DNA of 64,000 nt from Dehalococcoides mccartyi CG5 (GTDB lineage: Bacteria > Chloroflexota > Dehalococcoidia > Dehalococcoidales > Dehalococcoidaceae), in contig NZ_CP006951.1 in NCBI RefSeq assembly GCF_000830885.1, positions 1,240,001 to 1,304,000 of the forward strand. Reading direction: 5' to 3'. Positions within the stretch are counted from its first letter, which is position 1; the number at the start of each line of letters is the position of its first letter. The translations under genes and the position numbers were made by a program. Positions 43,262 through 49,748 of the stretch are shown one piece after another. The notes under the pieces are model-generated. The model was given only the letters and a program-made list of their open reading frames with translations. It was not told the DNA's origin and did not search any database.

Positions 43262-43531
43262 CTAGGCTACTTTTTTGTGACGGATGATAAGCTGCCAATC
43301 AAGCGCAGCCAGTATCAGAAAAATGATACCGAATATCAGGGCTCCCATCCAGGCTGAAGTCGGTTCGTTTTCTTCAAGCGAACTGAAATAATGCTGGACG
43401 GTGGCAAAGAGTGAAGCCACTGCCAAAAACCCGATAATCCATTCGTACCACTTTATAGCCAGTTGCTGGCGGATAAGCCAGACAACAAACAGAGTCAAGG
43501 CGACTGCTACTGCCAGTCCTACGAAAAACAT
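43262..43531 (-). CDS. rdhB: Reductive dehalogenase membrane anchor RdhB5
   Basis: This presumed anchor for RdhA5 has 89 residues from the ATG at 43531, which has GGAGG eight bases upstream. The longer reading from 43546 begins with a TTG that is part of that ribosome site, so I reject it. There are three hydrophobic segments, WYEWIIG and the class-A loop ENEPTSAWMG. It lies 27 bp after rdhA5. RdhB2 is the closest relative here. Confidence 0.92.
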   Translation of the reverse strand: MFFVGLAVAVALTLFVVWLIRQQLAIKWYEWIIGFLAVASLFATVQHYFSSLEENEPTSAWMGALIFGIIFLILAALDWQLIIRHKKVA

Positions 43532-43558
43532 GCTTCCTACCTCCAATTCCTTAAGCTA

Positions 43559-45046
43559 TTAGTAACTGGTGTCAATACCGTAGGTGAAGTCATCCATATC
43601 CCACCACTCTTCGGGGTCTTTCCGCCCGTAATCCATAGCTTTTTCCATATTTGTAAAGAAGCTATTTAAAAGCGGGGTATTGGCAACTGTGCCCTTAACC
43701 ACAGCATGCAGGAATGAATCCGGTTTGCTGTTGAAGGGGCAAGTGCCCTGACAGGTGGGGCAGTGAGGACAATCTGCGGTATTGGTTCGCCAGCCCTCAA
43801 ATGTGCCCTGCTGAATGCCGGACTTGGCTGAAGCCGGGTTTTCCCAGGTGGGATCACCCTTCTGAATCAGGTTGAAGGGGCAGGAGTCCGCACAAATACC
43901 GCAGGTCTTGCAGAATTTGTAGGCACCAAAGTCTATGGGCGGAGTGGGCAGCAAGGGCAGGTCGGTGATTAACGCCCACATAGCCCGGTTAGTTGTGCCG
44001 TATTTGGGAGTGATGGTGGGTGAAGACATGCGGCCATGTTCGCCCATACCGGCTAAAGCTGCTAAAGGATTAGCCAAAAAGCCCATCATGCCCGGATTCA
44101 AGGCCTGATAACCCAAACCGCGGATAAATTCCTGGAACTGGGCACCTACCTTGGGGAAGCGGGAATATGAATACCAAACGGCATGACTTTCGGTTATGCC
44201 TGCCTGGCGTCTGGTAGCTTCGAGTGACTGTCTGGCGCTCCACATAAGTATCCACTTGCACTTGCGGGGGATAACCATCTTGGTTGCGGTCTCATAAGCT
44301 TCCTCTACGTCTTCAACGACTACAGCTTTACCGCCAATCTGGGAATGGATAAATTTAAGAACATCGTCGTCAATTTCAATAGCACCCACATCCGAGCCGC
44401 CAAAGAATCTGAAGGCAGAGCGGCAGGTTTTAAGGTTTTCTTCGGGAGTACCCTGCCAGACCGGAGCCCCGAAATCCTGGGGACGGGTAGTAGTATCCAG
44501 CTGAGGCCCCAACCACGGAGTAAAGGTAGGGCTGCCGCCGGCCGCCATAATAGCGCCGATAACATTAACCCTCTTGCCACCCATTTCCATATTGCCGGGC
44601 CAGGCACCGAACATCATAAATTTGGAAGCATTGCACAGGGCGGTGGTTCGGGTATCTCCCATACCGGCATAGCCCGGAGTCCAGCCCGGAAACTCCTTGG
44701 CCATGGCATCATAAAGAGTCAGGGCCATTTCAGGGGTTTCAAGGTCAGTGGAAGTACCGCCGACAACGCCGGCTTTTGTGAAATCAGCTACAGTGGGTCT
44801 GGGCAGACCCTGAAATACACCCGGCTGACGGGTAACTTTTGACCAGTCTATAGGAACTGTAGGATTCTTGAAATCCCTTTCCTTTACCCACCAGGGATTT
44901 TTATTGATACCAAGGGTTGAAGACGTGACCTCATCCAAATCGTGGAAAACAGGGGCAGCAGCGCTCATAGTACCCAAACCTGCTCCGACTACCCCAAGGC
45001 TTTTCATAAAATCACGTCGCGAGAGTGTGGAATGAAACTCTTTCAT
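43559..45046 (-). CDS. rdhA: Reductive dehalogenase catalytic subunit RdhA5
   Basis: This is a reductive dehalogenase of 495 residues. The Tat signal is MKEFHSTLSRRDFMK. The cluster motifs are CKTCGICADSCP and CPHCPTCQGTCP (class A). It is a paralog of RdhA2, sharing KYGTTNRAMW, the Y-S-x-R-F block and Met at the PceA Asn272 position. GGGGAAA precedes the ATG. It is divergent from a MarR gene at 45293, and a perfect 42-bp palindrome lies in the shared region over the probable -10 of this gene. Confidence 0.95.
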   Translation of the reverse strand: MKEFHSTLSRRDFMKSLGVVGAGLGTMSAAAPVFHDLDEVTSSTLGINKNPWWVKERDFKNPTVPIDWSKVTRQPGVFQGLPRPTVADFTKAGVVGGTSTDLETPEMALTLYDAMAKEFPGWTPGYAGMGDTRTTALCNASKFMMFGAWPGNMEMGGKRVNVIGAIMAAGGSPTFTPWLGPQLDTTTRPQDFGAPVWQGTPEENLKTCRSAFRFFGGSDVGAIEIDDDVLKFIHSQIGGKAVVVEDVEEAYETATKMVIPRKCKWILMWSARQSLEATRRQAGITESHAVWYSYSRFPKVGAQFQEFIRGLGYQALNPGMMGFLANPLAALAGMGEHGRMSSPTITPKYGTTNRAMWALITDLPLLPTPPIDFGAYKFCKTCGICADSCPFNLIQKGDPTWENPASAKSGIQQGTFEGWRTNTADCPHCPTCQGTCPFNSKPDSFLHAVVKGTVANTPLLNSFFTNMEKAMDYGRKDPEEWWDMDDFTYGIDTSY

Positions 45047-45130
45047 AGATTTCCCCTTTCGAATTCTATCGGACTACCGCTGGTGCTGTAATTTATATTT
45101 ATTTAAGCTTGCTATCACCCTCTTTCACTA

Positions 45131-45189
45131 GTATATTAGTCTATATGGACTAGTCCATATAGACTAATATACCGATTGTGTATTGTCAA
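45131..45189 (-). promoter_or_regulatory. rdhA5 promoter with perfect 42-bp palindrome
   Basis: The minus-strand TTGACA lies at 45184-45189. The DNA from 45131 to 45172 is a perfect palindrome: the left half starts GTATATTAGTCTATATGG and the centre is ACTAGT. It covers the expected -10 and start region. The gene divergent from rdhA5 is a MarR regulator, so this is the likely operator. Confidence 0.7.
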
Positions 45190-45292: not shown

Positions 45293-45781
45293 ATGAACGA
45301 ATTTGAGACTCTGGAACTGGAACATTTACTTTGGGTCAACATTACTCAGGTTAAACATTCAATTGAACGGGCATGGACACGCGAATTAAAAAGCCTGAAT
45401 CTCTCTACCGAAAAGTTTGCCATATTACATGAACTCATGTGTCTGGGCGGAGAATCCACCCCTCATACTCTGGCCAGACGAATTGTATTTGAACCCCATT
45501 CAGTTTCAGCCATTGTCAGCCGTATGGAAAAAGACGGACTAATTATCAAAACCAAAGATTTAGACAAAAAACACATGGTGCGCATAAAACTTTCCGAAAA
45601 GGCTGTTGATACTTTCTATCAAGCTCTGGAAATTTCCAACAGAGTGTACAAGCAAATGATGGCCAGTATAACCAGAGAAGAAAAAGTGGAGTTATCAAAA
45701 ACACTCACTAAATTACGGAATCACACCTTGCCCTTAACCCACAAACACACTAAAACCCTGACCCCGTTTAAATACATTTAA
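45293..45781 (+). CDS. MarR-family regulator divergent from rdhA5
   Basis: This 162-residue winged-helix protein has TPHTLARRIVFEPHSVSAIV as recognition region and DLDKKHMVRIKLS as wing. It shares the EPH(S/T)VS core with the MarR genes at 11737 and 38085 but is otherwise divergent, in line with the unrelated operator sequence upstream. It probably represses rdhA5. It is convergent with rdhB6, so it is unlikely to be the regulator of operon 6. Confidence 0.9.
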   Translation: MNEFETLELEHLLWVNITQVKHSIERAWTRELKSLNLSTEKFAILHELMCLGGESTPHTLARRIVFEPHSVSAIVSRMEKDGLIIKTKDLDKKHMVRIKLSEKAVDTFYQALEISNRVYKQMMASITREEKVELSKTLTKLRNHTLPLTHKHTKTLTPFKYI

Positions 45782-45807: not shown

Positions 45808-45839
45808 ACAAGGGGGGGGATTTAAGTCTCCCCCCTTGT
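45808..45839 (-). terminator. Terminator of rdhAB6
   Basis: The 10-bp arms ACAAGGGGGG and CCCCCCTTGT lie between the convergent MarR gene and rdhB6. The U-run on the minus strand is weak. Confidence 0.7.
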
Positions 45840-46142: not shown

Positions 46143-47621
46143 TTACTTTCCGTACCCGCCGTCTCTGACACCCATAGTGGTATCAAAGCCGTATCTGGGC
46201 AGGTCAAGATCCCACCATTCGGCCGCGTCATGATGGCCGTAGCCAAAAGCAACGTCAGCTTTCCAGAGGAAGCTGTTGAAAATGCCGGTGGTGGAAAGGG
46301 TGGATTTAACAATTTCATGTATCATGGCTTTGGTATTTACGTTAAATACACAAACGCCGGTACATATCTGGCAGGTAGCCCCGGTGCTATGTTGATACAG
46401 CTTGCACTCAGGTTCATTCTTGTAGTAAGCCTTTTTACCACCGGTGCTCCAAGGACCAGCTGGTTCCCATGTAGGCTCTTCTTCAAATGATATGGCCTTG
46501 GCCGGGCAGGTATCCGCACACTTTCGGCAGCTATGGCAGAAGCGGAAAGCGCCGAAATCTATGGGTTTGCTGACAGGCAAAGGAAGGTCGGTAATAAATT
46601 TATAAATGCCGACTACCGCGCCTTCTTCAGGAATAACGCACTGGTTAATTCTATCCATTTCGCCCAGACCGGACAAAGTAGCCACAGCCGGTGAAGGACA
46701 AATGCCGTTAGGCCAGGGGGCAGACTGCAAACCCTGATAACCCAACCCAAGCAGGAATTTCTGGACACAGGCCATGGTTTCCTGATTGAGACGGTAGCGG
46801 CTCATATTGGCGGCATAACAAACACCTGAAGGTGCAGTGCGATACATTTCTTTGGGCATGGGGGTAGTGTAAGTAACCACCCAGCGGGCTTTGTTGGGGA
46901 TAATAAAGTGGGTATCAGTTACATAACCGTTATCGCAATCTTCAAAACCATAGGCCATGGGCGGGCCGTTAAAGAACATGCGGCTGGCATCTACAGGGTA
47001 GAACATGCTTTTTACATTAGCATCCAGTTCTATAGATGCAATCTGGCCGGCACCGAAAAACCTCATGGCGGATTTGAGCAAGGCAAAGTTCTCTTCAGGG
47101 GTGCTTTCCCAGCGGGGCACTCCAAAACTTTCATGGGTATAGGTTTGACCTACCAGCTCCGGTATGGGGGCTGCCCCTTCCAAAGCCGGATATACAGGTT
47201 CTCTCCAGCCGGCGTGGGCTATAAAATGAGGCCAGGCAGCTTCCTGCATGGAGGTATCCAGCAGGGAAATGGCTTCTTTAGAGCCGGTCTTTTTTGCCCC
47301 TGCGTTAAGAGCGGCTACACCCTGAGCCATAGCGGAATTTACCCTGTCCCATCCCACAAATTCAGCTAACAGCGGGGGAAGATGACAACCTTCCTGGGGA
47401 AACGGCAGTGAGGACGTTTTACTCCAGTCTATTTCTATGGTTGGCTTGTCAACCTCTCTCACCCACCAGGGCCGTTTGTTGACAGATGAATCTGCCGAGG
47501 CTACTTCGTCAAGGTCATGGAAAACAGGAGCGGCGGCGGCAACTGCACCTATACCGGCACCTGCCAATCCTAATCCCTTCATGAAGTCTCTTCGGCTCAG
47601 GCTACTGTGAAATTTACCCAT
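46143..47621 (-). CDS. rdhA: Reductive dehalogenase catalytic subunit RdhA6
   Basis: This is a reductive dehalogenase of 492 residues. The Tat signal is SRRDFMKGLGLAGAG. The first cluster motif is CHSCRKCADTCP. The second is class B, C-x10-CQICTGVC followed by Val. The presumed catalytic Tyr is in MSRYR and the Arg in GEMDR. AGGAAAGG precedes the ATG. It is divergent from a kinase/regulator pair at 47896-49748, the likely control system. It is clearly different from the other six in the segment after the signal, including an EEGCHLPP-like region with a Cys. Confidence 0.95.
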   Translation of the reverse strand: MGKFHSSLSRRDFMKGLGLAGAGIGAVAAAAPVFHDLDEVASADSSVNKRPWWVREVDKPTIEIDWSKTSSLPFPQEGCHLPPLLAEFVGWDRVNSAMAQGVAALNAGAKKTGSKEAISLLDTSMQEAAWPHFIAHAGWREPVYPALEGAAPIPELVGQTYTHESFGVPRWESTPEENFALLKSAMRFFGAGQIASIELDANVKSMFYPVDASRMFFNGPPMAYGFEDCDNGYVTDTHFIIPNKARWVVTYTTPMPKEMYRTAPSGVCYAANMSRYRLNQETMACVQKFLLGLGYQGLQSAPWPNGICPSPAVATLSGLGEMDRINQCVIPEEGAVVGIYKFITDLPLPVSKPIDFGAFRFCHSCRKCADTCPAKAISFEEEPTWEPAGPWSTGGKKAYYKNEPECKLYQHSTGATCQICTGVCVFNVNTKAMIHEIVKSTLSTTGIFNSFLWKADVAFGYGHHDAAEWWDLDLPRYGFDTTMGVRDGGYGK

Positions 47622-47895: not shown

Positions 47896-49074
47896 GTGGA
47901 AATAGACGAATTAAAAGACGAATTAGTTAAGTTAAAGCAGTGCAATTACACTCTTAAAAAAGAGCGGCTGAAATACCGCGAGCTTTTTAACTGGGCCAAC
48001 GATGCCATACTCCTGTTCAAATTCTCCAATACGAATGACCCCATAATAATTACAGAAGCCAATACTGCCGCCTGCAAGCACTTCGGATACAAATATGAGG
48101 AGCTAATCGGGAAGACAAATCTGGATATTGATTCACAGGAAACGGCACTCCGTGGACCGGAAATAGTCAGTAATTTAGTTGCCAAGGGGCATGAAGTTCT
48201 GGAAATAGCCCATAGAAATAAAAACGGGGAGAGTATCCCGGTTGAAATAAATCACAAACTAATCTACCTAGGCGGGGATACCATGATAATCTCGGTTATC
48301 AGGGATATCACTATCAGGAAGAAAAATGAGCAGGAACTTAAGGAGTCTTTAGAGCGGGAAAAACAACTAAGGGAAACTCTGGAAAATGAAATAAGCCAGC
48401 GGATTACCTTTACGAGGGCTCTGGTGCATGAACTGAAAACCCCGCTGACATCTATGCTGGCCACCTCTGAACTGCTCAGCAAAAACCTGGCAGAGGAACC
48501 TAACCTAAGCTATATGAAGTGCCTGTACGCCGGTATACAAGACCTTAATCTGCGTATAGACGAGTTGCTGGATATTGCACGGGGTGAGGTTGGTCTGCTT
48601 CGGCTGGAATGTGAACCCCTGAATATTTATGAATTACTTAAAGACATTGATGAGATAATGAACCCCGTATTTGAATCAAATTCCCAAAAACTGACTATCA
48701 GCATACAAAACCCGTTGCCTGTTGTAGTAGCCGATTACAAACGCCTTAAGCAGGTAATTTTGAATTTGTTGGATAATGCAGCAAAATACACCCCGTGGGG
48801 AGGCAATATTTCATTGACCGCCGGAATTAACCACAACAATCTGGAAGTTGAAGTGAAAGATAACGGCAAGGGCATGAGTCCGGAGGAGATAGGGGCTTTG
48901 TTCCACCTGTATTCGCGAAGCCATAAAAAAGGCACTCCCTCAGGTTTGGGTATCGGCTTGGCTTTGTCCAAGATGATTATTGACCTGCACGAAGGTGAAA
49001 TAACAGTGAAAAGCAAGGTTGGCGAAGGAAGTGCCTTTACTTTTTCCATACCGCTGAGGCCAAAAGCCAAATGA
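47896..49074 (+). CDS. Soluble PAS sensor histidine kinase next to rdhAB6
   Basis: This 392-residue cytoplasmic kinase starts at a GTG. There is one PAS domain (about 25-140; WANDAILLF, ending VIRDITIRKK), a coiled coil, then the H-box ALVHELKTPLTSML with His178. The ATPase domain has NLLDNAAKY, DNGKGMSPE and GLGIGLALS. It lacks the Cys-rich PAS of the kinase at 3352 but has the same general plan. It overlaps its response regulator by four bases. It is divergent from rdhA6 and probably controls it. Confidence 0.91.
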   Translation: MEIDELKDELVKLKQCNYTLKKERLKYRELFNWANDAILLFKFSNTNDPIIITEANTAACKHFGYKYEELIGKTNLDIDSQETALRGPEIVSNLVAKGHEVLEIAHRNKNGESIPVEINHKLIYLGGDTMIISVIRDITIRKKNEQELKESLEREKQLRETLENEISQRITFTRALVHELKTPLTSMLATSELLSKNLAEEPNLSYMKCLYAGIQDLNLRIDELLDIARGEVGLLRLECEPLNIYELLKDIDEIMNPVFESNSQKLTISIQNPLPVVVADYKRLKQVILNLLDNAAKYTPWGGNISLTAGINHNNLEVEVKDNGKGMSPEEIGALFHLYSRSHKKGTPSGLGIGLALSKMIIDLHEGEITVKSKVGEGSAFTFSIPLRPKAK

Positions 49075-49748
49075 AGATACTGATTATTGAAGATGATTAC
49101 AAAATAGTCCAGGCAATATCTTTTGCACTTAAAATATGCTGGCCGGATGCAACCCTGCTTAGTGCCTCACGCGGGGAGAACGGTTTAAAGATAATTGAAG
49201 AACAGTCACCAAATCTGATTATCCTTGACCTGAGCCTGCCGGATATGGACGGGCTGGAAGTACTGAAGGATGCCCGGCTTTTCTGTGATACTCCCATTAT
49301 TATTTTGACCGTACGGGCAGAAGAATCAGATGTAGTGGAGGCACTGGAGCTTGGGGCAAACGAATATATTATAAAACCCTTCCGCCAAATGGAGTTGCTT
49401 GCCCGAATACGGTGCATACTCCGCCGCCCCATAACTACCAACAAAGATGCCCTGATAGAATGGGGGCCTTTTAAACTGGACTATTTTAAAAGGCTGTTAT
49501 TTATAAACCAGAAAACTGTAATCCTGACCACCATTGAAAGCCAGATTATGCATGAGCTTATCAAGGATGCCCCTGGGATAGTAACTTATTCAAGGCTATC
49601 TGAACTGATTTCGGGGGGGCATTACCCTGAAGTAATTAACAGCATAAAGGTACATGTATACAACCTGAGGCGAAAACTTGAGGCGGATACCTATGCCCCA
49701 AAGCATATTATGAATATGCACGGGGTAGGCTATTTCCTGTCCAAGTAA
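49071..49748 (+). CDS. OmpR-type response regulator next to rdhAB6
   Basis: This 225-residue regulator has a receiver with Asp53 (IILDLSLPD), acidic EDD at 7-9, Lys in IIKPF, and a C-terminal winged helix (INSIKVHVYNLRRKLEAD, MHGVGYFL). It is the same length as, and clearly related to, the regulator at 2700. The start overlaps the kinase stop (ATGA). It probably activates rdhA6 from the phased TTAA sites in the divergent region. Confidence 0.92.
   Translation: MKILIIEDDYKIVQAISFALKICWPDATLLSASRGENGLKIIEEQSPNLIILDLSLPDMDGLEVLKDARLFCDTPIIILTVRAEESDVVEALELGANEYIIKPFRQMELLARIRCILRRPITTNKDALIEWGPFKLDYFKRLLFINQKTVILTTIESQIMHELIKDAPGIVTYSRLSELISGGHYPEVINSIKVHVYNLRRKLEADTYAPKHIMNMHGVGYFLSK

Follow-up and report, generated by a model that had tools for sequence, protein, structure and literature searches.

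A perfect 42-bp palindrome between divergent rdhA and marR genes as a probable dedicated operator of RdhR

Between a reductive dehalogenase gene and a divergent marR gene of Dehalococcoides mccartyi lies a perfect 42-bp palindrome, found within a 64,000-nucleotide stretch of DNA analysed as a whole (hereafter, the window). We think it probable that this palindrome is the dedicated operator of RdhR, the product of that marR gene, occupied by two dimers on overlapping dyads that would block both rdhA and marR and be released by a chlorinated aromatic compound. The support computed here comprises the anatomy, uniqueness and conservation of the site, its mirror-paired substitutions, the identity of the regulator and the conservation of its DNA-binding domain; binding to exactly this site, the number of dimers, the promoter positions and induction are what we infer.

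Results

The palindrome occupies window positions 45131..45172, where it reads GTATATTAGTCTATATGGACTAGTCCATATAGACTAATATAC (no strand is assigned to it or to its dyads), and we annotate it as a predicted composite operator from its self-complementarity, which is also perfect in two orthologous promoters. Its arms, 45131-45151 and 45152-45172, measure 21 nt each, are 100% complementary and meet with a spacer of 0; the site is single copy and is flanked by the start codons of rdhA (ATG at 45046, minus strand) and of marR (ATG at 45293, plus strand). A preliminary description of this DNA had recorded a 42-bp palindrome with fully paired 21-bp arms and no spacer, placed between rdhA and a divergent MarR gene, and the arm check and the start-codon positions bear this out. 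It had also called chance occurrence negligible, in agreement with the expectation for arms of at least 21 bp (1.5e-8 per window and 3e-7 per genome). The latter figure overstates the surprise, because tandem copies of a 16-bp palindrome automatically give a perfect composite palindrome; the improbable part is the tandem dyad.

By length, the palindrome ranks second among the perfect inverted repeats of the 1.36-Mb genome, in a scan that took the genome as 69 separate stretches covering it in full, with repeats spanning stretch borders missed. The single longer perfect even palindrome genome-wide has 25-bp arms and lies at G000:283815 (G000 being the genome that contains the window), and most of the remaining long palindromes resemble GC-rich terminator hairpins. 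That longest perfect palindrome (50 bp; G000:C1 283815-283864; TTATAAAACAGATTGGGGAAGTGATATCACTTCCCCAATCTGTTTTATAA) is possibly a two-way terminator; another, of 40 bp (CCGTTTCCATCCTGTAGCTATAGCTACAGGATGGAAACGG; G000:C1 1209924-1209963), lies ~1 kb past the marR gene of another rdhA cluster and is not terminator-like. For the 42-bp palindrome itself, we rejected an intrinsic terminator (29% GC, no T run and no terminator-scan match there), and searches for a transposon end or a plasmid relative gave no support to either.

Examination of its internal structure resolved the palindrome into two overlapping 16-bp dyads, TAGTCYATATRGACTA, set 14 bp apart and flanked by GTATAT and ATATAC. Dyad 1 (TAGTCTATATGGACTA; 45137..45152) is symmetric at 14 of 16 positions in G000 and at all 16 in both orthologues, and dyad 2 (TAGTCCATATAGACTA; 45151..45166) is its reverse complement, 14 bp further on, with a TA common to both; together these repeated palindromic units have a period of 14 and span ~30 bp. 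With the two variable positions set to N, the dyad matched without mismatch at this promoter only, exactly twice in each of three genomes of the genus (G000, G001 and G002); the palindrome therefore appears to be a private operator and not a regulon motif. A search for the composite at 20 fixed bases returned no match in genome_contigs, a collection that excludes near relatives, and at 17 fixed bases eight matches, all from unrelated organisms and no more than chance could account for; viral contigs yielded no match to the composite.

The usual footprint of a MarR protein is one dimer on ~16-20 bp, and RdhR might accordingly bind this operator as a single dimer, either at the centre (TATGGACTAGTCCATA) or on one dyad or the other alternately, the remaining symmetry being incidental or an aid to sliding. 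A central 16-bp dyad does exist, as it would in any tandem of palindromes, but its half-sites stand back to back (GACTAGTC, spacer 0), unlike the TAGTC-N6-GACTA arrangement; the outer half-sites of both dyads are, moreover, fully conserved in all three genomes, and repeated dyads are found at other rdhA-marR promoters too. We consider occupancy by one dimer unlikely. The preliminary description had raised two possibilities for so long a palindrome, two overlapping MarR dimers or a cruciform, of which the first is supported by two like dyads of 16 bp in a 14-bp step, by their uniqueness and by their position beside the gene for an orthologue of RdhR-CbdbA1625.

The regulator itself (RdhR; 45293..45781, plus strand) could be identified by sequence and fold. 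In a phmmer comparison with the 5e1w chain, 160 of 161 aligned residues are identical to RdhR-CbdbA1625 (PDB 5e1w, 5e1z), whose entry titles name an organohalide sensing transcriptional regulator, ligand free and 2,4-dichlorophenol bound (further entries, 5e1x and 5e20); a predicted model of RdhR agrees with the solved structure (Z 22), and both PF12802 and PF01047 score above cut-off. RdhR-CbdbA1625 belongs to strain CBDB1, a different strain, in which its divergent partner is rdhA cbdbA1624, a link that fits the conserved first 100 bp of rdhA (PMC2764846). In CBDB1 a MarR protein represses rdhAB through binding to the rdhA promoter, according to PMC13390414, which cites Wagner 2013. The regulator has been characterised before, and earlier work on CBDB1 may include a description of the operator.

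Comparison of RdhR with its two orthologues (60-61% identity overall) revealed that conservation is concentrated in the winged helix: within residues 52-100, 42-43 of 49 positions are identical (86-96% across genomes), as against 55-56 of 113 (49%) elsewhere in the protein. Four-fold synonymous sites within the winged helix are identical at only 9/20 and 9/18, and third codon positions are also far from identical; the conservation therefore reflects purifying selection on the protein, not recent conversion. Such joint constancy of binding domain and target DNA, next to a diverging sensor domain, is what one would predict for a regulator and its operator.

We then placed candidate promoters on either side of the palindrome. 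The predicted marR promoter (45109..45137, plus strand; TTGCTA, 17 bp, TATATT), a consensus match only, has its -10 element in the left arm, and the putative rdhA promoter (45161..45189, minus strand; TTGACA at 45189-45184, 17 bp, TAGTCT at 45166-45161) has its own in the right arm. The preliminary description had assigned a TTGACA to rdhA: this hexamer is indeed present on the minus strand and kept in both orthologous promoters, but the -10 element paired with it is weak, matching the consensus at 3 of 6 positions, and was missed by the consensus scan. Hexamers and spacings of both predicted promoters are kept in all three genomes. If both are right, they would face each other, with both -10 elements and both starts inside the palindrome, and the 16-bp dyads overlap the two predicted -10 elements. 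A further minus-strand promoter from the scan, TGGACT-16-TATACT, was set aside, its -10 not being preserved in G001.

The presumed target, rdhA (43559..45046, minus strand), encodes the catalytic subunit of a reductive dehalogenase with a Tat signal and is followed by a presumed rdhB membrane anchor (43262..43546, minus strand; 94 aa), named from its position after rdhA, with no Pfam match; past marR lies a GC-rich inverted repeat, a likely terminator (45808..45839, no strand assigned). Nearby, a PAS histidine kinase and a response regulator (window 47896-49748) are divergent from a second rdhA (46143-47621), and adjacent dehalogenase genes therefore use different regulator types.

A purely structural role for the palindrome, as a cruciform in supercoiled DNA or a regulatory hairpin in mRNA, appears very improbable. 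The single strand does form a perfect fold (-15.5 kcal/mol as DNA, z -9), but any perfect palindrome folds likewise, a GC-poor stem lacking a T run is not a terminator, the core conserves base identity and not pairing alone, and the predicted starts lie inside the palindrome, so that neither mRNA would carry both arms.

The divergent rdhA-marR arrangement is also present in G001 and G002, giving three orthologous promoters for comparison. Loss of the palindrome in such promoters, raised in the preliminary description as evidence against it, was looked for, and the palindrome is perfect over 52 bp in G001 and over 42 bp in G002. Differences affect 0-2 of 30 sites in its 30-bp core and ~15-25% of the leader on the marR side. 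Within the 42 bp, G000 and G002 differ at two sites, as do G001 and G002, and each time the two sites are mirror partners with complementary changes (45147 G to A with 45156 C to T; 45131 G to C with 45172 C to G); given two random substitutions, such pairing is expected by chance in ~0.8% of cases per comparison (~1/41 x 1/3). The paired change in G000, whose direction assumes that the G001/G002 form is older, reduced the two 16-bp dyads, taken singly, to 14/16 symmetry and left the whole palindrome symmetric. Paired changes of this kind may mean either that the inner half-sites are equivalent within one symmetric complex or that one arm is copied onto the other at replication.

The second of these would make the palindrome an operator whose perfection is kept by a mutational process, hairpin or template-switch correction between arms during replication, an idea compatible with RdhR binding and one that we entertain tentatively, as possible though not likely. 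The mirror-paired complementary changes of the two comparisons, each at ~0.8% by chance, speak for it, as do the retention of whole-palindrome symmetry in G000 at the expense of dyad symmetry and a perfect extension in G001, CGTCA..TGACG, outside the shared repeat; the resulting 52-bp symmetry exceeds what a protein need contact and counts against a reading of the site as an operator and nothing else. On the other side, there are only three sequences, the direction of change is unreadable in G001, and selection on equivalent half-sites likewise yields paired changes.

The surroundings of the palindrome are mosaic. RdhA (~420 residues within the loci) shares 94% identity between G000 and G002 and 63% with that of G001, whereas MarR is 81% identical between G001 and G002 and 60-61% to that of G000. 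In all three pairs DNA identity is high over the region that begins at the first rdhA codons and runs across the palindrome (81-96% per 100-base window); it drops to ~50-60% within parts of rdhA in comparisons with G001, and at the marR ends in those of G000 with both other genomes. Could the palindrome then be a recombination end or the end of an insertion sequence instead of a regulatory site? The mosaic coding regions on both flanks are consistent with this, as is the chimaeric rdhA DET1535 of strain 195, whose first 100 bp match cbdb_A1624 (PMC2764846). The breaks in similarity, however, fall outside the palindrome, similarity continuing through it into the rdhA codons and the marR leader, and the site is single copy, leaving such an origin extremely improbable. 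With arm-to-arm copying, it is conceivable, if on balance doubtful, that renewed symmetry accompanies a fixed cassette of operator, promoter, rdhA signal-peptide codons and repressor DNA-binding domain, around which enzyme body and sensor domain are exchanged or diverge.

Finally, we scored tandem dyads against shuffles at 28 marR promoters from four genomes of the family. The RdhR promoter family and three other families lie above the shuffles, and the remainder do not; the architecture thus recurs at rdhA-marR promoters but is not universal. Upstream of the marR gene at locus L094 (G002:C1 near 1479503, minus strand) three tandem ATGGAATCATTCC units with a period of 13 make up a perfect odd palindrome of 41 bp; the adjoining rdhA is a 5' stub, apparently running into the end of an rdhB-like reading, and the operator is still there. 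At L092 (G000:C1 898600) and L089 (G001:C1 1069747), tandem dyads of the ATCGTATACGAT type in a 16-bp step lie upstream of marR; the rdhA near 900002 in G000 (L092) is short, at 177 aa, and the G001 marR (L089) has an internal TGA. Beside rdhA-divergent marR genes at L100 (G000:C1 1163240) and L098 (G002:C1 1361231), GTATACGATACTAGTATACGAT forms two dyads in a 13-bp step, a family that in G000 is only narrowly above the shuffle maximum. The paralogue nearest in sequence, whose DNA-binding helix is much like that of RdhR (G000:1208365, with its orthologues), lacks a clear tandem dyad of the RdhR kind, which counts against the operator reading. Class-level MarR homologues supplied 27 more promoters (L114-L140), and these have neither a tandem dyad clearly above chance nor a comparable palindrome, terminator-like hairpins excepted.

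Discussion

We propose that two RdhR dimers would settle on the two 16-bp dyads, their centres 14 bp apart, as a symmetric four-subunit complex in which the dimers are displaced both along and around the helix, by ~120 degrees at the usual 10.5 bp per turn. Because both predicted -10 elements lie inside the palindrome, a single complex would keep RNA polymerase from both promoters at once, and for marR this would amount to autoregulation. Binding of a chlorinated aromatic, for example dichlorophenol, to RdhR would then release the complex and induce the dehalogenase.

Comparable arrangements help to place this proposal. Krasper et al. are said to have described in 2016 a tetramer of Rdh2R (CbdbA1456) on a ~30-bp direct repeat that covers the start site of rdhA and whose units each contain short palindromes; Rdh2R was reportedly without effect on its own promoter. 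Rdh2R is a different paralogue, and the RdhR site differs from its repeat in consisting of perfect or near-perfect dyads in a 14-bp step, merged into one perfect palindrome; by analogy with Rdh2R, a tetramer might form cooperatively on the RdhR palindrome. Operators of the QacR type (TetR family) likewise hold two overlapping dimers on one long near-perfect palindrome, as we propose for RdhR, although the QacR family is unrelated and the spacing between centres is different.

Dehalococcoides carry dozens of rdhA genes, few of whose inducers are known, and are very difficult to work with genetically. One unmistakable operator per regulator would allow regulators to be assigned to their targets by sequence and followed with reporters in E. 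coli. The three genomes compared here appear to join one operator and one DNA-binding domain to two types each of sensor domain and enzyme, a combination that would make the rewiring of inducer specificity without altered DNA recognition directly testable.
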